A stretch of 64,000 nucleotides of DNA from positions 4,039,982 to 4,103,981 of the forward strand of contig CM055901.1 of NCBI GenBank assembly GCA_029582155.1. The letters are read 5' to 3'. Under the pieces are notes generated by a model. It was given only the letters and a program-made list of their open reading frames with translations, ran no database searches and was not told the DNA's origin. Shown here piece after piece: positions 17,065 to 41,711 of the stretch. The first letter of the stretch is position 1, and every line of letters starts with the position of its first letter. The position numbers and the translations under genes are program-made. This DNA comes from Panopea generosa. Its lineage: Eukaryota > Mollusca > Bivalvia > Adapedonta > Hiatellidae.

Positions 17065-18356
17065 CTGCAAAATAAAGAAAAGATTGAATGATTATTGTAA
17101 CAACTATACATGGTGTATGATCTAACGCTACAGTGGCCGAAACTTGAATTATGGATAAATGGACCTCGCAAGGACCATGTGCGTAAGACTGGATATGGTA
17201 TTTTATACAAATTTTAGTAACGCACATACCGGTTTTACAAGGGAGTTACTATCCTTTGCAGTCGGGACCGGTTAGCTCATGCGGTAGCGTGTCTAACAAC
17301 CAATCCCGTGATCGTGAGTTCGTATATCCCCGCCCTGTCTCCCTATCAGGATTGATACACGGCATTGCGTCTTATTGTCAGTCGCCTCTCACCGTTGTAA
17401 TGGTATCCCTAGTCTGTAGTACGGAACCAGCTCTCCCGATTGGGTCCGTTAAATAGCAATGTTGGGAAAGCTAGATATGGGCACGTTGATTGGTCAGTTG
17501 TTTTCAAGTAAAAGTTTGATGACGTCACAGTTTAGTAAGCGTTCAACTCCTATGAATTGTAGGGACAGGCATAGAATTGCCTGCTTTATCTGACCTGATT
17601 CGGGAGATATCGGGTTCTGGTATAGACTCAAGTATCCCATTGAAACGCAACACTGACTCGGGAGCGCACTAGGAAGGCGCCGAGCGTGATTTACGGAGTT
17701 TATTAATTACCGGTCCATTTTAGAAGTGAAATCAAAAGAATGCAGTTGTTTATTCTAATGCATGCATTCAGCTGCAGCAACAACCTGGCAATTCAGTTTA
17801 ATCGCTGGTTTATTTTAAATATATACGTTATTATTAAGAGAAACGGATACATGCAGAAGGGAGAGAAATAATAAATGAAAAGAAAAAAAAAATTAGTCTA
17901 TTACTACCATTTTGTGTTTTGTGGTTGAAATTAAATGTATATGCTCAAGAACTGGTAAACCTTCCAGGATCCCAGGGCTGTAAGCCGTTGGTGGCTAAAA
18001 TGACGCGAAATATTCAATCAATAATAAAAAAAAATGAGACTATGATGATGTTGGTCGGTGCTATTTTGATGAGGGAGATCAGCATTATTTAACCATGCCA
18101 CCAAATGCACCCGTTCAATAGTGTGCTGGGCTCTTCAATGGGGGTGATTTAGGCAGTTTGTACCAACGTGACTATTACCTTTAATCCGGCAACTGCTGCG
18201 GGCCCAGTAGGGTCCACCGCCTGTACATAGGTCGGGCTTTCTCCTCGGATGACGAATCCATAACCTACAGGGTCACTCATTATCTGTATAATGGAAATGT
18301 GTATAAATGTTGGTCCGAGATACTTTGAAATATACATGTACCTTTATACCCCATCC

Positions 18357-18419
<63 letters not shown>

Positions 18420-21400
18420 CATTTTAACAGAGGTTAAATTTGAACATATTTCCGGAAGCACCTATGTTTAAACTGTGGTGACACTTTACAGCCCACTTTC
18501 CCTGGGATGAACATATCACCTCTTGTTTGACTAATTCGTCTATAGATGTTACACCAGAGAGATATATAAACATGCGATTAAGTGAATGGATACACGAGGC
18601 AATAATTCCAAATCGTACCTTGATGGATTGTTTTACATAAGGGGTATCTGGAGATTCCAACTCGTGCACTGTCGCATGCCGTAGTAAAACTGAAAAATGA
18701 AACATCAAGTTCAATTTTAAAAATTATTGTAGAATTGAAGTGCGACAAAGTGCACGTCACCAAGGGGCCCTATTTACTTTATTTTATTTTGCTTCTCCCA
18801 AGACAGCACATCGGATATCCAAATATTGAAAAATGCTGTCCATGGATTGTTTTGCAGTTTGCAGTTTGCAGAAAAAAAACATATGAAAATGGTCGGGATG
18901 CATACACTTGACCAGAGTTATAGCTCTTTCCCCACAACAACAACGAGATTAATAGACTGTATATGTTTGTGATATATTGATTCCATTTCAATATTGTGAA
19001 GTGTTATTTTACCACTATAGAGTTTTCTATCCCCAGAACATAAAGGTATAAGAATCTATTTTCCAACTTTTGTCAGTAAAACATAAGCATCAACTTTTGA
19101 AAGTTATGCATTCCCTCTTCACTTCTCTTTGGAATCAGCTTGATGACAATATTAAAGCAGCGCATTTACTTTCAATCTGTTAAAATACATTACGCCATAA
19201 CACTAAATTTATAATACCACCATATTATTCCCATGGCAAATGATGTGTCTCAATTTATCATGCAAGATTTAGAAACAACTTTAGTAACCTTAATGCCGAT
19301 CTATGTAGAAACAACTGTAGTAACCTTAATGCCGATCTATGTAGAAACAACTGTAGTAACCTAAATGCCGATCTATGTAGAAACAACTGTAGTAACCTTA
19401 ATGCCGATCTATGTAGAAACAATTGTAGTAACCTAAATGCCGATTTATGTAGAAACAACTGTAGTAACCTTAATGCCGATCTATGTAGAAACAACTGTAG
19501 TTACCTTAATACCGATCTATATAGAAACAACTGTAGTAACCTAAATGCCGATCTATGTAGAAACAACTGTAGTAACCTAAATGCCTATCTATGTAGAAAC
19601 AACAGTAGTAACCTTAATGCCGATCTATGTAGAAACAATTGTAGTAACCTAAATGCCGATCTATGTAGAAACAATTGTAGTAACCTTAATGCCGATCTAT
19701 GTAGAAACAACTGTAGTAACCTAAATGCCGATCTATGTAGAAATCATCTGCATCCATCAACGTTCTGTGTGTGCTATGAGGTAACAGAAAATGCTGAACA
19801 ATATTTCTTTAAATATCCTACATATTGCAATCAAAGACTCGTCTTGTTTCAAATAATACGAGCATTACATCCGTTAAATATTAATCTACTACGGAGTGGA
19901 GGTAAAACGCTATCTATAGAAGATACCATAACCATTGTGGATGCTGTTCATAATTTTATTTAAGAGACTCATAGATTTTAATATTATTATAACAGTTATA
20001 ATAATAATGATGATAATAATAATAAAGAAATAAATAAAAATAGTTACAATTTGGGTGGTCAATCTGAGTAAACAATGTAATGGTATTATACATAAATGGA
20101 TCCGTGCTTTGTGCTTGACTAGCCAAGTTGTAATAAAATAAATTATGATGATATATATTGTTTATGCTGGCATTAACAGTAAAAAAGCACTAGTCCTGAA
20201 CTAGTCCCGGATCTAGTTTCAATAGACTTCAATAAGGAATTTGACATTGTTACTTCATGCAAATGTAAAAACCAAACTTAAACTTCATCAGTATGGCAAC
20301 GGATGTCAAAATCTATAATATATAACAACATATCTTTAGAACCAAATTCAAACCCTTACCCTGAAAAAATGACAAGTCGTAAAAAGATCCAATAATACAG
20401 AACAAGTTGGGTGGTGCCTGGAAAGCAAATGCTGACCAACAAGCAAATACTGAATATCAACATCTCCAGAAAAAAGCGATGATAAAAATGGAGTTTTTAT
20501 AGCACAATCAATGTAAACACACTGACCATGTAAATACCATCTGTATAATAATGATTGATTGATTGATTGATTGATTGAAAATTTATCGTCATTTTTATAC
20601 CATCGAGAGCAAACAGACGATCAGTTAACCTAACCACTGTTCGGATTAACCAGTACTCGAGCACATCCTATCTCCGCAAGTAACTGATAACTTTCCCACT
20701 TGAATCAGTGGTGAGAGACGAACGATAATGAGACAAAATGTCGTATATCAATTATCACGGAGACTGTTGCCGGTCGGGGTATTCGAACTCACGACCCCTT
20801 GATTGATAGTCAGACGCGTAACCGACTGAACTAATCGGACCCGGCTTGTATAATAAGTAACAAAGACAACGGAAGCAACAGAGTGTCACATGTACTTTCA
20901 AATCTTATACTAGTAGTAGTATTGGAAACTTACAGAAGAATGGATCAAACCACCGATATCTAGTAGCAAGAGTGATAGTTTACAGGAGTTTACAGGTGAC
21001 ACTAGTAAGGGCAAAGTCCGGAAAAGGGTTAAATTGAGTGATGGAAGAGAAAGAAAGAAAATAGTTTTTACAGAGCTGTCGAGAGAAAAATTCATAGAAT
21101 AAATATGAGTGTGATTCTGTTGAGCTTACCAAAGGAGTTGATGAACAATATTTAGCAGTCAAAATGATGAAAGATGAAACATCCAAACAATCATTTTATA
21201 ATACAAATGAATGCCAATGAAAAGTAGAATTGTCTAAAGTAGAATTGTCAAAAGTAGAATTGTCAAAAAATGAATTCTTAAACTTTAGAAAACAAATAGT
21301 CTTGACGTATGGTTGTCCAATGCATCCAATAGTTCAGATCTGCTAGTGAGACACTCAAACATAACGCAACAAGTACGTGTCTGAGGTACTACATCACAAC

Positions 21401-24800: not shown

Positions 24801-27800
24801 ATTCTAATATAAAATACTTTCCACCATTTAGTAGCAGAGAGAGGGGTTATATCAGTACATTGATTTACACCCTTTCAATTTTTTCATTATTATTGAAATT
24901 GATAAAGAATGCAAAGGGTTAAAACGCTTTCAGATAAAGACAATTAAATGATCGCATTGAATTTTTTTGCGGTGATAAACTCTGAAACGGCATAATGACA
25001 ACATGTTTTTTTAAAAAAACGATTCTGGGTTAGTGATTAAGAGGAAACCCGTTTGGCATTTTCTCTTAATTATTTGGTTTTACATTATAGTCAGATGGGG
25101 ATTCTCCAAATATTTCAATATTTTACATTCCAATCATTTATCAATAACAACATCCCGATAAATATACATTTTCGGTCATGTAGGGCCTACTTACAATTTG
25201 GTGTATAGAACTGATAATCACTTTTTTCACGTGGTCCACTATTTGAACGTGAACTACAATTTCGCGCTGCTGGTGCATAATTGAATACATCTTTGAGGTA
25301 CCGCTTCTGATTGAAGTCCAGTGTAAACCTATACAGAATACGGCTATCGTCACGGAAATGGAAATCGTCCGTTACTGTAAAGTTGAAACAGTAACTTAAA
25401 GATAAATAACGCTATATTACAGACGTGAAAACGAATTAATAAACAACAAAAGACTGCGTCCCATAAAAACAACAACATGACATGGCAGAAATGTTCAGCC
25501 ATCACACATATTAGAGCCTATTGCATTTATAAAACAACCATGAAGAACGTTATGCAATACAAAAGCCCAAAAGACCTATCAGTACACATGTTACAACACA
25601 CTAATACATAAGATGTCAATGACGAGTTCAATACATAAAACAAAGTGTACAGTAATATGGATTGCACTTTTCTTAACATAGAAATAATGTCAAAAGTATC
25701 ATTTACTATCACTAACACATATCTGTACAAATCTTATAACTCTTTTCGCCACCCATTATCAAATATTATAATATGTTGTTGTTGTTGTTGTATGGTGTTG
25801 TTGTTGTTGTTGTTGTTGTTGTATGGTGTTGAGCGTCGCTTTCAACAATTTTTCAGTCATATGGCGACGGTGTCTACTTGAGACAGTATTCTGAGCGCTG
25901 TCACACTGGAGTATCATGCCGCAGACACATGGTATGACACCCCACCCAGTCACATTATACTGACACTGAGCCGACCAGATCTAGAACTGTCTATAAATGC
26001 TGAGCGTCAAGCGAGGAAGCTTCTAGTATCATTTTTAAAGTTTTTGGTATGACCGGCCGGGGATCGAACCCACGACATTCCGCATGCGAGGCGGACGCTC
26101 TACGACTAGACCACGCCGCGGTTTAAATATTATAATAATATTTGCACACAATCGATATCAAGTTTGTTAAACTTATCAATTATCAATTAAGAAAAAAATT
26201 AGTTACCCACCATGCCTTATGGTATCACTTTCCAGTAGCCGTCTGCCCAGAAGTACCGCATCCTCCCTGGTTTGCACGTCACCTCTCTTAAGAATGTAAT
26301 CCACAAAGTCAGACCCCTGAAATGCGTTTCTGAATAGTTCCCCGTCTTGTTGGTAACTCCGGATAACGCCATTGTTCTCAGTTATGAGCCTGTTCGACGG
26401 TAAATTACGATATATAGCCTAGGTACGCCCATGATCATTTAAATCATAGCAACAAGACTCCGATTTTGTATTGGGACTGATTAAGAGTATCATCACTTGT
26501 ACGTCTGTCAGCATGGTCACAATATCTTATTTATTCTGTTTTATGTATATAATACCGGGTATCTGACGAAATGCATTGTAAAAGGAGATCGCTGTCTTCT
26601 CTGCCTTTTATATTGACATACCATATATGTATTTGTGATTCAATAAACATTCAATCATCACTGAATAGAACAGTATTGCTTGTTAAGGGACACAGTATCA
26701 GTTCTCTGTAAACAGCGTTTGTAACCGTTATATAAATCGAAAGCTTTATAATAGTTTGATGGTTGTGTTTTATTATTCGATATTCACCATCAAATTTATC
26801 CAAACTCTCTCTCTACCTCAGACATTAAAGAGTAACATTTAAATGTCTAAATGCGGAACATGTTTATCAAATTAGTTTCCAACAATAAGAAGCTAAAATC
26901 GAGAGCTTTATATCATACCTACCCGTTATACAACTCGAGAGCTTTATACAATACCTACCCGTTCTAAAACTCGAGAGCTTTAAATAATATATACCCGTTG
27001 TACAACTCGAGAGCTTTACATAATACCTACCCGTTATACAACTTGAGAGCTTACTATAATACCTACCCGTTATACAACTCGAGAGCTTTACACAATACCT
27101 ACCCGTTATACAACTCGAGAGCTTTACACAATGCCTATCCGTTATACAACTCGAGAGCTTTATACCATACCTACCCGTTATACAACTCGAGAGTTTAACA
27201 CAATACCTACCCGTTATACAACTCGAAAGCTTTACATAATAACTACCCGTTATACAACTTGAGAGCATTACACCAAACCTACCCGTTATACAACTCGAGA
27301 GCTTTACACAATACCTACCCATTATACAACTCGAAAGCTTTACAAAATATTACCCGTTATACAACTCGAGAGCTTTACACAATACGTACCATTATACAAC
27401 TCGAGAGCTTTACACAATACCTACCCGTTATACAACTCCAGAGCTTTACACAATACCTACCCGTTAAACAACTCGAGAGCTTTACACAATACCTACTTTT
27501 ACACAATACCTACCCGTTAAACAACTCGAGAGTTTTACACAATACCTACCCGTTATACAACTCAAGAGCTTTACATAATAAGAACCGTTTTACAACTCGA
27601 CAGCTTTACACAATACCTACCCGTTATACAACTCGAGAGCTTTACACAATACCTACCCGTTATACAACTCGAGAGCTTTACACAATACCTACCCGTCATA
27701 CTACTCGAGAGCTTTACACAATAAGTACCCGTTATACAACTCAACAGCTTTACACATTACCTACCCGTTATACAACTCGAGAGCTTTACACAATACCTAC

Positions 27801-30800
27801 CCGTTATACAACTCGAGAGCGTTACACAATACCTACCCGTTATACAACTCGAGAGCTTTATAAAATAGTTTGAGATCTTTATCTTCTTTGTATGTTTCGT
27901 CATCCCGACGGAATCGGTAAAACAAGGTCTGATCTTTTATGTCGTGGTCGTCACAAACTGAAACAAGACAATCATGATAAGATACATTCGAAAAAAGTAA
28001 TAATCGAGATAAGCAATAAACGAGATAAGTTATATTTGAGATAAGTATTAGTCGAGATAAATAATAATCGAGATAAGTAACATTCAAAAAAAGTGATTAA
28101 CGAGATAAGTTATATTTGAGATAAGTATTAGTCGAGATAAATAATAATCGAGATAAGTAACATTAAAAAAAAGTGATAAACGAGATAAGTTATATTTGAG
28201 ATAAGTATTAGTCGAGATAAGTAAATAAGTAACATTATATATAACACGGTGGCGAACCCACGTGACTTTATGTTATAAAGTGTTACAAAAAAATCGGAGC
28301 AAAATAGACTGCTTTAAGTAACATTTTGCAAATTTTCTTAATATTTTATGGAAATTCACGAAACAAAGACGAGCACCGTTTCTGTATAGAGATGAACTAC
28401 TGGTGATATCAAATGGGCAAAAATAACTTATTATTTGCAAGGTCCTAAAACTGAAATCCAACGTTAGAGATGAGATAGGTAATAGTTTAGCCCTCAATCT
28501 GAAATACAACGTTCGAGATCAGTAATATATTAGCCAACAAACCGAATTAAAGGGTTTGACATAAGCGATAATTTAGCGTTTATACTCAACTTTCAAGATT
28601 AATCATATTTTAGTAATTATTTTGAAACAGAAATGCTACCGATTCTGAATACTTCAAATTTTATTTCAGTTAAATTTATATACATGTATTGCAAATTTCA
28701 TTAAAAAAAATAAGCAAAATAGGAAAATGATATTGTAAATGAAGATAAATTAGTGATGTGCTTGTCGACACGAATGCCCCGGCTGTACCTGCAGTGCTGT
28801 TGTATTAGATCATTATTATATGTGCAAGTTCATACTAATAATCGCTAACAAGCATCACCATAACCAGTTAAGAGGTTTTGGAAGACGAGTGCTGAGAAGA
28901 ATCACAGTTTAAAATAGATAAATGGCCAACAGTCGATTGAGCAAGACGATGACAAGAGCAACTGAGCTTTATACTGATAGCCCCTAACAAGTTTGGTCGA
29001 AATCAATTGAAAGTTAAGGATAAGTGCTGTAAATAGCTACAATAAATATTATCAAAGGAGCATAACTCCCTCCAAAAACCAATGGTATGACGCGCAACTA
29101 GGCTTCATACTATTACTCCCTAGCAAGATGAGCTCAAATTGTTTCAGATGTCGATGTACTGGACGTAATGACGATAAGCCTAGCTAGGCTTCAGATTGAC
29201 ACTTCCTGACAAGTTTAATAAAGAAGTTTAGGAGAGTAAAGCTGACAAGAAAGTGTGACGTAATGACATACGGACAGATGGACAAGGGCAACTCTCCCGC
29301 ACAATTTCGCCATAAATGACATGGCATAAAAACGATCACAAATTTCTTACCATGATGAAACAATGAGTATTTCTGTAATATTGCAAGGGCGTCTAGTGTG
29401 GCCTCCCGGTTTTCACAATGTTTATTTTTTATCAGCCATTCGATCAGGTCATGTCCCACAATACACGATTTGTATGTCCTAAGATGATACTTCCGGTCTT
29501 TGATGAGATTTGCAGCGTGAAGTCTTTGTCTGTAAATACGGAACATGGCTCTAGTTGATCTTGGGCATATTTTAAAAAACTATTACAATATTAACACACA
29601 TATGACGTGAACAGTCAAGTAAATAAGGATTTGATCAGAATTTAAGGATTGCCATTAAAACATGACAAAAAATTCATACAATGATATTCTCTTCTCTGCA
29701 TGAAAATATTATTTCGAACAATAAAATCCTGAAATCAGCTCTTAGAAATATACACCTAAAGAATTATAATATTTTGGGGAAACATGAATACGACTGACGA
29801 ACAATTTCAGTTTTAGATAAAGAATATTTTAAAGATTATTGCTGTTTTAACTCGTTGCATCGATATGCGCATCAAAGACAGCAACTCCTTCGTGGATAGT
29901 GTGCACAGAGTCCTCTTAACATTTCTACATGCAGATGCATGACATTTGGTATATCAATGCCACTTAAACAAGTTAAAAACAGTCACAACTGTCTTAAGAA
30001 GCTAGTCAAGGGAGTGAACGAAAGTTGCCTTTTAAGACAGGCTGTTGCCTAATACAGGTTAATTTGCTCTGAAAGCATCAAAACGGGAAATAGCAATTGT
30101 GGCTGCTTAAGACAAGGGGCTGCTTAATAGAGGTGACCGCTTACATAGGTTTGACTGTATATGTAAAACAAATCCTTGGATGCACTGAGCACACTACCGA
30201 AAAGAAAATAACGTGCTCGGTTTTATTAAGTCTGTTCACGAGGTGCAGTAAAGCATGCAACCCCGTAAACTGTATTATATTTGAAACCAACATTTGAAGG
30301 AGCTCTTTGGTTCAAAACGTCAACAATAATAACAACTCTAGTTCATGTTTGAGGCCGATGCACGGAAAGTCCGGCTGTTGTTGTGTAAGTCAATATTTTT
30401 TTAATCACTTAACTATTCTTAAAATACACCTCATATGTAAACAATAAACAGAAGCACCACGTGCATGTGGAGTGCATGATTCAGTGGTAGGGCCTCGGTG
30501 GTCCTAGTATCGGGGGTCGTGGGATCGATCCTAAGCCAAGGCTATCTGTGGTGTCTTTGAACAAGACATTTTATCCGCATATGCTTAGTACTGGACCTCA
30601 ATTCATCAATATTTTGAGTCTGAGATTTAGACTCGGAGTCTAATTGTCAACTATTTAAGATTCGTAAACATCCATTTAACAAGAAAATTACTATATTTAT
30701 TTGCAGAAACAAGCAATTTTAATGATTATTTAACAGAAAATGTTACAGTATCACATGTATTACCCATGAGTGTATGCTTACAGTGTTTTACAAAATGTAA

Positions 30801-35661: not shown

Positions 35662-38600
35662 ATCCTGGGTAGAAGCAGAACTGAGCGTGTTTCGGGAGGT
35701 TATCCAGTCTGGGTAGAAGCAGAACTGAGCGTTGGTTTGGGAGGCTATTGAGTCAGGGTAGAACCAGAACCGAGCGTTGTTTCGGGAGACTATTGAGTCT
35801 TGGTAGAAGCAGAACTGAGCGTTGTTTGGGAGGCTATTGAGTCTGGGTAGAAGCAGAACTGAGCGTTGTTTCGGGAGGCTATTGAGTCAGGGTAGAAACA
35901 GAACTGAGCGTTCGGGATGCTATTGAGTCTAGGTAAAAGTAGAACTGAGCGTTGTTTTGGGAGGCTATCGAGTCTGGGTAGAACCAGAATTGAGCGTTGT
36001 TTCGGGAGGCTATGGATTCTGGGTAGAAGCAGAACTGAGCGTTGTTTCGGGAGGCTATTGAGTCTGGGTAGAAGCAGAACTGAGCGTTGTTTCGGAAGGC
36101 TATTGAGTATGGGTATAAGCAGAACTGAGCGTTGCTTCGGGAGGCTATTGAGTCTGAGTATAAGCAGAACTGAGTGTTGTTTCGGGAGGCTATTGAGTCT
36201 GGGTAGAAGCAGAACTGAGCTTTGTTTCGGGAGGATATTGAGTCTGGGTAGAAGGAGAACTGTGCATTGTTTCGGGAGGCTATTGAGTCTGGGTAGAAGC
36301 AAAACTGTGCATTGTTTCGGGAGGCTATTGAGTCTGGGTAGAAGCAGAACTGAGCATTGTTTCGGGAGGCTATTGAGTCTGGGTAGAAGCAGAACTGAGC
36401 ATTGTTTCGGGAGGCTATTGAGTCTGGGTAGAAGCAGAACTGTGCATTGTTTCGGGAGGCTATTAAGTCTGGGTAGAAGCAGAACTGAGCATTGTTTCGG
36501 GAGGCTATTGAGTCTGGGTAGAAGCAGAACTGAGCATTGTTTCGGGAGGCTATTGAGTCTGGGTAGAAGTAGAACTGTGCATTGTTTCGGGAGGCTATTG
36601 AGTCTGGGTAGAAGCAGAACTGAGCGTTGCTTCGGTAGGCTATTGAGTCTGGGTATAAGCAAAACTGAGCATTGTTTCGGGAGGCTATTGAGTCTGGGTA
36701 GAAGCAGAACTGAGCATTGTTTCGGGAGGCTATTGAGTCTGGGTAGAAGCAGAACTGTGCATTGTTTCGGGAGGCTATTGAGTCTGTGTAGAAGCAGAAC
36801 TGAGCGTTGCTTCGGTAGGCTATTGAGTCTGGGTATAAGCAAAACTGAGCATTGTTTCTGGAGGCTATTGAGTCTGGGTAGAAGCAGAACTGAGCGTTGT
36901 TTCGGGAGGCTATTGAGTCTGGGTAGAAGCAGAACTGTGCATTGTTTCGGGAGGCTATTGAGTCTGGGTAGAAGCAAAACTGAGCGTTTATCGGGAGGTT
37001 ATCCAGTCTAGGTAGAAGCAAAACTGAGCGTTGTTTCGAGAGGCTATTGAGTCTGGGTAGAGGCAAAACTGAGCGTTGTTTCGGGAGGCGATCGAGTCTG
37101 GGTAGAAGCAAAACTGAGCGTTGCTTCGGGAGGCTATTGAGTCTGGGTAGAAGCAGAAATGAGTGTTGTTTCGGGAGGCTATTGAGACTGGGTAGAAGCA
37201 GAACTGAGCGTTGTTTCGAAAGGTTATCGAGTCTCAGTAGAAGCAGAACTGAGCGTTGTTACGGGAGGCTTTTGAGTCTGGGTAGAAGCAAAACTGAGCA
37301 TTGTTTCGGGAGGCTATCAAGTCTGTGTAGAAGCAAAACTGAGCGTTGTTTCGGGAGGCTATTGAGTCTGGGTAGAAGCAAAACTGAGCATTGTTTCGGG
37401 AGGCTATTGAGTCTGGGTAGAAGCAAAACTGAACGTTGTTTCGGGAGGCTATTGAGTCTGGGTAAAAGCAGAATTAAGCGTTGTTTCGGGAGGCTATTAA
37501 GTCTGGGTAGAAGCAGAACTGAGCGTTGTTTCGAGAGGCTATTGAGTCTGGGTAGAAGCAAAACTAAGCATTGTTTCGGGAAGCTATCGATTTTGGGTAG
37601 AAGCAGAACTGAGCGTTGCTTCGGGAGGCTATTTAGTCTGGGTATAAGCAAAACTGAGCATAGTTTCGGGAGGCTATTGAGTCTGGGTAGAACCAGAACT
37701 GAGTATTGTTTCGGGAGACTATTGAGTCTGGGTATCAGCAAAACTGAGCGTTGTTTCGGGAGGCTATAGAGTCTGGGTAGAAGCAGAACTGAGCGTTGTT
37801 TCGGGAGGCTATTCAGTCTAGGTAGAACCAGAACTGAGCGTTGTTTCTGGAGGCTATTGAGTCTGGGAAGAAACAGAACTGAGCGTTCGGGATGCTATTG
37901 AGTCTGGGTAGAAGTAGAACTGAGCGTTGTTTTGGGAGGCTATTAAGTCTGGGTAGAACCAGCACTGAGTGTTGATTCGGGAAGCTATCGAGTCTGGGTA
38001 GAACCATAATTGAGCGTTATTTCGGGAGGCTATCGAGTCTGGGTAGAAGCAGAACTGAGCGTTGTTTCGGGAGGCTATTAAGTCTGGGTAGAAGCAGAAT
38101 TGAGCGTTGTTTCGAGAGGCTATCGAGTCTGGGTATAAGCAAAAACTGAGCATTGTTTCGGGAGGCTATTGAGTCTGGGTAGAAGCAGAACTGAGCGTTG
38201 TTACGGGAGGCTATTGAGTCTGGGTAGAAGCAGAACTGTGCATTGTTTCGGGAGGCTATTGAGTCTGGGTAGAAGCAAAACTGAGCGTTTTTTCGGGAGG
38301 TTATCCAGTCTAGGTAGAAGCAAAACTGAGCGTTGTTTTGGGAGGCTATTCAGTCTGGGTAGAGGCAAAACTGAGCGTTGTTTCGGGAGGCGATCGAGTC
38401 TGGGTAGAAGCAAAACTGAGCGTTGCTTCGGGAGGCTATTGAGTCTGGGTAGAAGCAGAACTGAGTGTTGTTTCGGGAGGCTATTGAGACTGGGTAGAAG
38501 CAGAACTGAGCGTTGTTTCGAAAGGTTATCGAGTCTCAGTAGAAGCAGAACTCAGCGTTGTTACGGGAGGCTTTTGAGTCTGGGTAGAAGCAAAACTGAG

Positions 38601-41600
38601 CATTGTTTCGGGAGGCTATCAAGTCTGGGTAGAAGCAAAACTGGGCGTTGTTTCGGGAGGCTATTGAGTCCGGGTAGAAGCAAAACTGAGCATTGTTTCG
38701 AGAGGCTATTGAGTCTGGGTAGAAGCAAAACTGAGCGTTGCTTCGGGAGGCTATTGAGTCTGGGTAAAAGCAGAATTAAGCGTTGTTTCGACAGGCTATC
38801 GAGTCTGGGTAGAAGCAGAACTGAGCGTTGTTTCGGGAGGCTATTAAGTCTGGGTAGAAGCAGAACTGAGCGTTGTTTCGAGAGGCTATTGAGTCTGGGT
38901 AGAACCGGCACTGAGCATTGTTTCGGGAAGCTATCGAGTTTGGGTAGAAGCAGAACTGAGCGTTGCTTCGGGAGGCTATTTAGTCTGGGTATAAGCAAAA
39001 CTGAGCATAGTGTCTGGAGGCTATTGAGTCTGGGTAGAACCAGAACTGAGTATTGTGTCGGGAGGCTATTGAGTCTGGGTATAAGCAAAACTGAGCGTTG
39101 TTTCGGGAGGCTATCGAGTCTGGGTAGAAGCAGAACTGAGCGTTGTTTCGGGAGGCTATTGAGACTAGGTAGAACCAGAACTGAGCGTTGTTTCTGGAGG
39201 CTATTGAGTCTGGGAAGAAACAGAACTGAGCGTTCGGGGTGCTATTGAGTCTGGGTAGAAGTAGAACTGAGCGTTGTTTTGGGAGGCTATTAAGTCTGGG
39301 TAGAACCAGCACTGAGTGTTGATCCGGGAAGCTATCGAGTCTGGGTAGAACCTGAATTGAGCGTTATTTCGGGAGGCTATCGAGTCTGGGTAGAAGCAGA
39401 ACTGAGCGTTGTTTCGGGAGGCTATTAAGTCTGGGTAGAAGCAGAACTGAGCGTTGTTTCGAGAGGCTATCGAGTCTCGGTAGAAGCAGAACTCAACGTT
39501 GTTTCGGGAGGCTATTGAGTCTGGGTAGAAGCAAAACTGAGCATTGTTTCGGGAAGCTATCGAGTTTGGGTAGAAGCAGAACTGAGCGTTGCTTAGGGAG
39601 GCTATTTAGTCTGGGTATAAGCAAAACTGAGCATAGTTTTGGGAGGCTATTGAGTCAGGGTAGAACCAGAACTGAGTATTGTTTCGGGAGGCAATTTAGT
39701 CTGGGTATAAGCAAAACTAAGCGCTGTTTCGGGAGGCTATTGAGTCTGGGTAGAAGCAGAACTGAGCGTTGTTTCGGGAGGCTATTGAGTATAGGTAGAA
39801 CCAGAACTGAGCGTTGTTTCTGGAGGCTATTGAGTCTGGGTAGAACCAGCACTGAGTGTTGATTCGGGAAGCTATCCAGTCTAGGTAGAAGCAGAAATGA
39901 GCGTTGTTTCGGGAGGCTATTGAATCTGGGTAGAAACAGAACTGAGCGTTCGGGATGCTATTGAGTCTGGGTAAAAGTAGAACTGAGCGTTGTTTTGGGA
40001 GGCTATTAAGTCTGGGTTTAACCAGCACTGAGTGTTGATTCGGGAAGCTATCGAGTCTGGGTAGAACAAGAATTGAGCGTTGTTTGGGAGGCTATCGAGT
40101 CTGGGAAGAAGCAAAACTGAGCGTTGTTTCGGGAAACTATTGAGTCTGGGTAGAAGCAGAACTGAGCGTTGTTTCGAGAGGCTATCGAGTCTCGGTAGAA
40201 GCAGAACTCAGCGTTGTTTCGGGGGGAAGCTATTGAGTCTGGGTAGAAGCAAAACTGAGCATGGTTTCGGGAGGCTATCGAGTCTGGGTATAAGCAAAAC
40301 TGAGCGTTGTTTCGGGAGGCTATCGAGTCTGGGTAGAAGCAAAACTGAGCGTTGTTTCGGCAGGCTATTGAGTCTGGGTAGAAGCAAAACTGAGCGTTGT
40401 TTCGGGAGGCTATTGAGTCTGGGTAAAAGCAGATTTGAGCGTTGTTTCGGGAGGCTATCTAGTCTGGGTAGAAGCAGAACTAAGCGTTGTTTCGGGAGGC
40501 TATTGAGTCTTGGTAGCAACAGAACTGAGCTTTGTTTCGGGATGCGATTGAGTCTAGGTAGAAGCAGAAATGAGCGTTGTTTTGGGGAGGCTATTGAGTC
40601 TGGGTAGAACCGGCACTGAGTGTTGTTTCCGGAAGCTATCGAGTCTGGGTAGAACCAGAATTTAGCGTTGTTTCGGGAGGCTATCGAGTCTGGGTAGAAG
40701 CAGAACTGAGCGTTGTGTCGGGAGGCTATTGAGTCTGGGTAGAAGCAGAACTGAGCTTTGTTTCGAGAGGCTATCGAGTCTCGGTAGAAACAGAACTCAG
40801 CGTTGTTTCGGGAGGCTATTGAGTCTGGGTAGAAGCAAAACTGAGCATTGTTTCGGGAGGGGGCTATCGAGTCTGGGTAGAAGCAGAACTGAGCGTTGCT
40901 TCGGGAGGCTATTTAGTCTGGGTATAGGCAAACTGAGCATAGTTTCGGGAGGCTATTGAGTCTGGGTAGTACCAGAACTGAGCATTGTTTTGGGAGGCTA
41001 TTGAGTCTGGGTATAAGCAGAACTGAGCGTTGTTTCGGGAGGCTATTGAGTCTGGGTAGAAGCAGAACTGAGTGTTGCTTCGGGAGGCTATTGAGTCTGG
41101 GTAGAAGCAGAACTGAGCGTTGTTTCGGGAGGCTATTGAGTCTGGGTAGAAATAAAACTGAGCGTTCGGGATGCTATTGAGTCTAGGTAGAAGCAGAACT
41201 GAGCGTTGTTTTTGAGAGGCTATTGAGTCTGGGTAGAACCAGCACTGAGTGTTGATTCGGGAAGCTATCGATTCTGGGTAGAACCAGAATTGAGCGTTGT
41301 TTCGGGAGGCTATCGAGTCTGGGTAGAAGCAGAACTGGGTGTTGTTTTGGAAGGCTATTGAGTCTGGGTAGAAGCAGAACTGAGCGTTGTTTCGAGAGGT
41401 TATCGAGTCTCAGTAGAAGCAGAACTCAGCGTTGTTTCGGGAGGCAATTGAATCTGGGTAAAAGCAAAACTGAGCATTGTTTTGGGAAGCTATCGAGTCT
41501 GGGTAGAAGCAAAACTGAGCGTTGTTTCGGGAGGATATTGGGTCTGGGTAGAAGCAAAACTAAGCATTGTTTCGGGAAGCTATCGAGTCTGGGTAGAAGC

Positions 41601-41711
41601 AAAACTGAGCGTTGTTTCGGGAGGCTATCGAGTCTGGGTAGAAGCAAAACTGAGTGTTGGTTTCGGGAGGCTATTGAGTCAGGGTAGAAGCAGAACTGAG
41701 TGTTGTTTTGT
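35662..41711. repeat. 45-bp satellite, about 134 copies, with 1.3-kb higher-order repeats
   Basis: The unit is TTGTTTCGGGAGGCTATTGA then GTCTGGGTAGAAGCAGAACTGAGCG. Variant order is duplicated: the AGGCAAAACT variant at 37061 recurs at 38363, a shift of 1302 bp (29 units minus 3 bp of indels). Because 45 is a multiple of 3, one plus and two minus frames stay open for hundreds of codons (for example LLSLGRSRTERCFGR). Open frames on both strands argue against coding. Confidence 0.95.

Follow-up and report, generated by a model that had tools for sequence, protein, structure and literature searches.

The DEPTOR gene and the end of its third exon

The minus strand of the window, that is, the whole 64,000-nt stretch of Panopea generosa DNA analysed here, carries a DEPTOR orthologue and a 36-bp tandem array that begins inside exon 3 and runs into intron 3 (Table 1). 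Regarding the identity of the gene, the joined protein, used as a query without exon 7, matched human DEPTOR with E 9.4e-72 over query residues 37-412, and this alignment, which reached residue 405 of the human protein, bears out the name given in the sequence-only reading of the locus. The same query matched PDZ structures (e.g., 2dls, E 7.8e-07). Pfam DEP was found on two pieces of the predicted protein (1.4e-17 and 1.3e-10), and the 38-aa piece from exon 8 alone gave Pfam PDZ E-values of 0.099 and 0.18, short of the cut-offs. The combination of two DEP domains and a C-terminal PDZ domain in one gene supports assignment as a DEPTOR orthologue. In the protein collection, the best match to the query without exon 7 was P0003 (55% over 100%), and the best named relatives were bivalves, with Mercenaria first (60% over 89% of the query), followed by Mactra, Mya and Dreissena. 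The orthologue alignment, made with the same query, took in 17 of the 120 listed relatives. A scan for exon 7 left four candidates, which lacked the motif sought, and exon 7 was then picked by eye from the translations and chained.

Table 1. Positions in the window of the DEPTOR gene model and of the sequences related to the end of exon 3
Feature	Position	Strand	Description or basis
DEPTOR gene	31099-16924	-	Nine coding exons; 1335-nt CDS, 444 aa, stop at end, no phase clash
DEPTOR exons 1-3	31099-30957, 29529-29351, 27957-27837	-	Phase, splice signals, homology
DEPTOR exons 4-6	26389-26211, 25374-25195, 23767-23552	-	Phase, splice signals, homology
DEPTOR exons 7-9	18689-18619, 18283-18179, 17064-16924	-	Phase, splice signals, homology
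DEPTOR exon 3, end of first DEP domain (DEP1)	27957-27837	-	121 nt, entered in phase 1 and left in phase 2; aligned orthologues
Functional 5' splice site CGG/GTAGGT, exon 3 end 27837	27831-27839	-	Phase 2 fits the acceptor before 26389
Exon 4 acceptor AACAG/G, first exon base 26389	26389-26391	-	Phase 2 continuity and orthologue alignment
36-bp array	26881-27867	-	28 segments: 26 full copies (the one in the exon counted), a 17-nt fragment and a decayed end; TRF, decomposition
17-nt partial copy, still with AAA/GTAGGT	27508-27492	-	Decomposition
Decayed last copy of the array	26917-26881	-	Decomposition
Lone copy of the end of exon 3, decayed and without a GT donor	26759-26722	-	Local score 49

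The end of exon 3 at 27837, which had been proposed before, agrees with the phase and with a protein alignment that continues from 27837 into exon 4, the two exons joining without an insert. Phase and homology show that the donor at 27837 yields the full protein, and this donor is presumably the one used in Panopea generosa. The similarity to the relative P0001 includes exon 4 and, judged by eye, is lost just ahead of the exon's first base, which is consistent with an intron at this point. Two other placements were rejected. Starting exon 4 behind the AG at 26419 (frame AIYRNLPSNR) gives a phase of 0 that clashes with exon 3 and adds residues absent in the 17 aligned relatives, and an overlapping donor, TAG/GTATTG, located 4 nt downstream of the exon 3 donor, would place TAG in frame.

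Structure of the array

TRF reported a period of 36 in two abutting stretches, 26899-27496 (16.7 copies, 88% matches) and 27498-27867 (10.3 copies, 89% matches), and decomposition gave 28 segments, in which the 26 full copies, the exon's own counted, are 35-36 nt each. The head-to-tail arrangement of a unit within 10-100 bp makes the array a minisatellite. Both analyses place it at the exon 3/intron 3 junction of DEPTOR, where it had been seen before, the first copy spanning the donor at 27837. In the best register (TATT...GG), the array begins within exon 3 at 27867, and its first copy joins the 31 nt at the exon end to GTAGG, the five bases contributed by the intron. The earlier description of the unit as an exon end with its 5' splice site therefore holds, whereas the 24 bases allotted to the exon must be raised to 31 nt, 29 of which equal the consensus (2 of 36 sites differ over the whole unit), and the intron part shrinks to GTAGG. 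The minus strand of the window contains 18 exact occurrences of the donor string CGGGTAGGT, all within the array, from 27837 to 26923 and with the functional site included, and the plus strand has none. This string is kept in 18 of the 26 full copies, or 17 of the 25 that are not part of the exon, and exact donors thus number 18, 17 of them additional, rather than the approximately 27 previously claimed.

Neighbouring 36-nt copies are no more alike than others (0.898 versus 0.897), and no significant gradient of divergence was found along the array (rho 0.22, p=0.29). Units that are ~90% identical over 36 bp are generally difficult for short reads, and the copy number might in principle be collapsed or inflated by the assembly; such an artefact is, however, highly improbable in view of the private changes carried by many copies, and neither the junction nor the lone copy depends on the exact copy number.

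The exon as the source of the array

The end of exon 3 encodes an LFY(K/R)ALELYNG-like peptide common to bivalve orthologues: LFYRALELYNGLS in P0003-P0005 and LFYKALELYKGLS in Mactra P0006. The peptide has diverged further in Mya P0007 and Dreissena P0008, as would be expected of protein evolution. Compared with the consensus of the array, the exon differs in columns 5 and 7 only. At column 7, the exon base A is kept in 4 of 27 other copies, which rank 20, 23, 26 and 27 from the exon, and it is thus confined to the distal third (Mann-Whitney p=0.003, for copies that are not independent). At column 5, the exon base is present in one mid-array copy only, giving no polarity signal.

A further trace of the exon end is the lone decayed copy beyond the array, which matches the exon past the 5' edge of the unit by six bases, TCAAAC. 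It scores 49, against no value above 29 in 500 mononucleotide shuffles; of the 3134 scores obtained when exon 3 was compared with 120-nt scan windows (step 40, both strands, exon and array excluded), the next best was 27. Between the array and the lone copy, the spacer shares no repeat with the remainder of the intron, its score of 18 falling below the 95th percentile (23) of 300 shuffles. With moderate confidence, since the additional match is as short as six bases, the lone copy may be regarded as what is left of a duplication that was older and longer.

Because the peptide is shared with the orthologues, the column 7 base persists in distal copies and the lone copy extends further into the exon, the order was exon first and array second, upholding the earlier view that the exon gave rise to the array. 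The reverse order, in which the array would have originated in the intron and later imposed its sequence on the exon end, could appeal to the departure of the first copy from the consensus at just 2 of 36 sites. It is nevertheless extremely unlikely: the LFY(K/R)ALELYNG-like end is common to other bivalves at the protein level, the two differences affect the codons for F and Y in LFY, residues that P0003-P0008 retain, and distal copies contain the base that the exon has in the Y codon.

Consequences of downstream donors

Joining an exact downstream donor to exon 4 places a stop at codon 149 in 17 of 17 cases, confirming the predicted termination after YNG. The product is 148 aa long, ends in KALELYNG and contains the first DEP domain without DEP2 or PDZ; the tandem DEP and PDZ parts of DEPTOR contact mTOR. 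As the stop is the TAG of the first GTAGGT, any bypass of the first donor has the same result, and among the 18 exact sites only 27837 yields the full protein. Between the stop and the exon 3/4 junction downstream of it are 32 to 910 nt, and further junctions follow. According to the usual NMD rule, a stop upstream of later exon junctions leads to degradation of the transcript. Since the stop precedes the exon 3/4 junction and further junctions, the alternative-donor transcript is predicted to be an NMD target. A protein search for the truncated form returned none at E 0.001 among its four candidates, a result of little weight because the species' own protein did not turn up in the collection either.

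Strength and preservation of the donors

The 18 exact donors score 7.86 each in a weight matrix, and the six other DEPTOR donors scored with it (the exon 7 donor left out) range from 6.78 to 8.75. The donor of a discarded alternative for exon 6 scores -3.1. Predicted accessibility is low for all 18 donors (0.003-0.094), and the value of the first, 0.010, is not distinctive.

Having identical donors after the real one can be expected to be a burden, so neutrality of the array is not self-evident. In DOK7, which has two donors 11 nt apart, PMC5585400 describes a preference for the intron-proximal (downstream, stronger) donor and a suppression of the intron-distal one by SRSF1 bound upstream. By this example, the downstream copies in DEPTOR might even be favoured, against quiet neutrality.

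Regarding selection, the nine donor positions were compared with the 28 other columns in the 25 full copies outside the exon, setting aside three gap cells, all of them in the donor. Changes were found in 14 of 222 donor cells and 39 of 700 cells elsewhere (Fisher p=0.74), a comparison of low power, as it concerns 25 copies of one genome that are not independent. An earlier donor count with gaps counted as changes led to the same conclusion (17/225 versus 38/675, p=0.33). Of the donor positions, +2 T shows no change in any of the 25 copies, +1 G is changed in two, +4 in five, and +5 in three with two gaps. Within this one genome, preferential preservation of the alternative donors by selection was thus not found. 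The exact donors in 18 of 26 full copies could pass for maintenance; homogenisation explains them.

These data bear on the idea of a regulatory donor ladder, in which copy number and the levels of U1 and SR proteins would set DEPTOR output through alternative splicing, combined either with NMD or with a DEP1-only protein. The equal scores of the donors, the common 148-aa stop and a first donor that is not singled out by predicted accessibility are all in its favour. Nevertheless, the idea is rather unlikely, given donor positions that are not preferentially kept, with +4 and +5 among those changed, and the absence of the truncated isoform from the four candidates. The earlier proposal that copy number tunes mTOR-inhibitor output accordingly finds no backing in donor conservation or, for the little that it weighs, in the protein search, and the region is rich in minisatellites. 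A stronger version, a heritable splicing rheostat in which array length would inversely set the DEPTOR level, and thereby TOR activity, between clams through U1 drawn to a poison donor, appears very unlikely.

At the opposite end, the array might be inert, with position, exon context or hnRNP binding wholly silencing the copies and leaving splicing unaffected. The intact copies contain UAGG, an hnRNP-binding motif, and the unbroken chain of phases suggests an intact gene, implying that the array is tolerated. However, the last 31 exon bases have been copied together with the donor, and the local context of the first and later donors is nearly alike, making complete silence improbable.

Beyond the donor array, intron 3 contains two AATAAA strings, at 26774 and 26535; it may be speculated that U1 at the donors protects against early polyadenylation.

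Tandem repeats around the array

The window contains 24 arrays with a period of at least 10, merged by hand from the TRF output, which account for 26.5% of the window's length and 17.8% of the gene's. They touch one of 16 exon boundaries and 31 of 1264 exon bases (exon 7 left out). When the arrays were compared with eight exons, the 36-bp junction array was the sole one of the 24 that clearly matched an exon (E 4.5e-31; next array, 0.005). As arrays are commonplace in the window, the birth of one across an exon boundary is unsurprising.

Arrays flank exon 3 on both sides, the second (27995-28224, periods 16 and 80) ending 37 nt before the exon and carrying three copies of ACTAATAC, a branch-site-like string. 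Another 36-bp array, at 19270-19743 in a DEPTOR intron (13.2 copies, 94% matches), has no match to the eight exons compared. Upstream of the gene, a 6-kb array (35665-41708) comprises 134.6 copies of a 45-bp unit and contains, on the minus strand, 82 occurrences of TTCTACCCAG, which has the appearance of an acceptor. In the last DEPTOR intron, the sequence at ~17257-17360 resembles by eye a tRNA-derived element, with A- and B-box-like strings; ARAGORN reported no tRNA in the window.

Relation to known systems

The minisatellite of human IFI6 (6-16, G1P3) reportedly has a 12-bp unit whose downstream donors add in-frame codons, whereas in DEPTOR the unit measures 36 bp and a stop results from every alternative exact donor. 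As is reported for IFI6, the functional exon donor is part of the first unit, and its sequence persists in later ones. The minisatellite with multiple splice donors in IFI6 is attributed to Turri, Cuin and Porter (1995, Nucleic Acids Res 23:1854) in PMC2572611 and PMC3618361, the latter citing the work for interference with gene splicing. IFI6 is the closest precedent, being likewise a minisatellite that supplies multiple splice donors in a transcript. Genes in human segmental duplications, as described in PMC2812944, contain internal tandem repeats with a unit of ~30 bp on average, some of them at exon-intron boundaries and reported to give rise to alternative splicing. These are likewise minisatellites, yet they concern duplicated primate genes with transcript support and novel introns, in contrast to a bivalve gene read from genomic sequence in which no new intron was seen. 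Intron gain by tandem genomic duplication (the subject of PMC4974935 and PMC3443670) similarly duplicates a segment bearing splice signals; in DEPTOR, however, exons 3 and 4 join directly, and a new intron is unnecessary. The premature stop from an alternative site that characterizes regulated unproductive splicing (AS-NMD) is present with all 17 alternatives. In view of the IFI6 and segmental-duplication precedents, the DEPTOR array may be filed under an already known kind, the splice-donor minisatellite. Searches of the open-licence literature (DEPTOR with minisatellite; bivalve with minisatellite, intron and splice site) yielded no report on this array; a scallop TORC1 study names DEPTOR (PMC11591371).

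Origin and significance

Taken as a whole, the array is probably a near-neutral minisatellite seeded at the DEPTOR exon 3/intron 3 junction, adding at most some splicing noise. Its reading as a tolerated by-product follows from donors that are no better preserved than the rest of the unit. A tandem duplication of the junction, comprising 31 exon bases and GTAGG, would have seeded it, as suggested by the identity of unit and junction, the orthologous exon and the polarity, and slippage or unequal exchange may have driven its growth within intron 3. Competition for U1 from the 17 other exact donors is conceivable, and use of any of them would include the TAG of the first copy, giving the 148-aa DEP1-only frame on a transcript that is predicted to undergo NMD.

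Should copy number alter DEPTOR output, repeat length would be linked to TOR control. The locus is a clear example of minisatellite birth from an exon-intron junction that can be read in sequence, with the exon, the array and a lone outlier all present. It also presents a natural competition of 18 identical 5' splice sites with a working protein from the first only, and it can therefore test what marks the right donor. Even if the array is neutral, the locus would be useful as a natural experiment.
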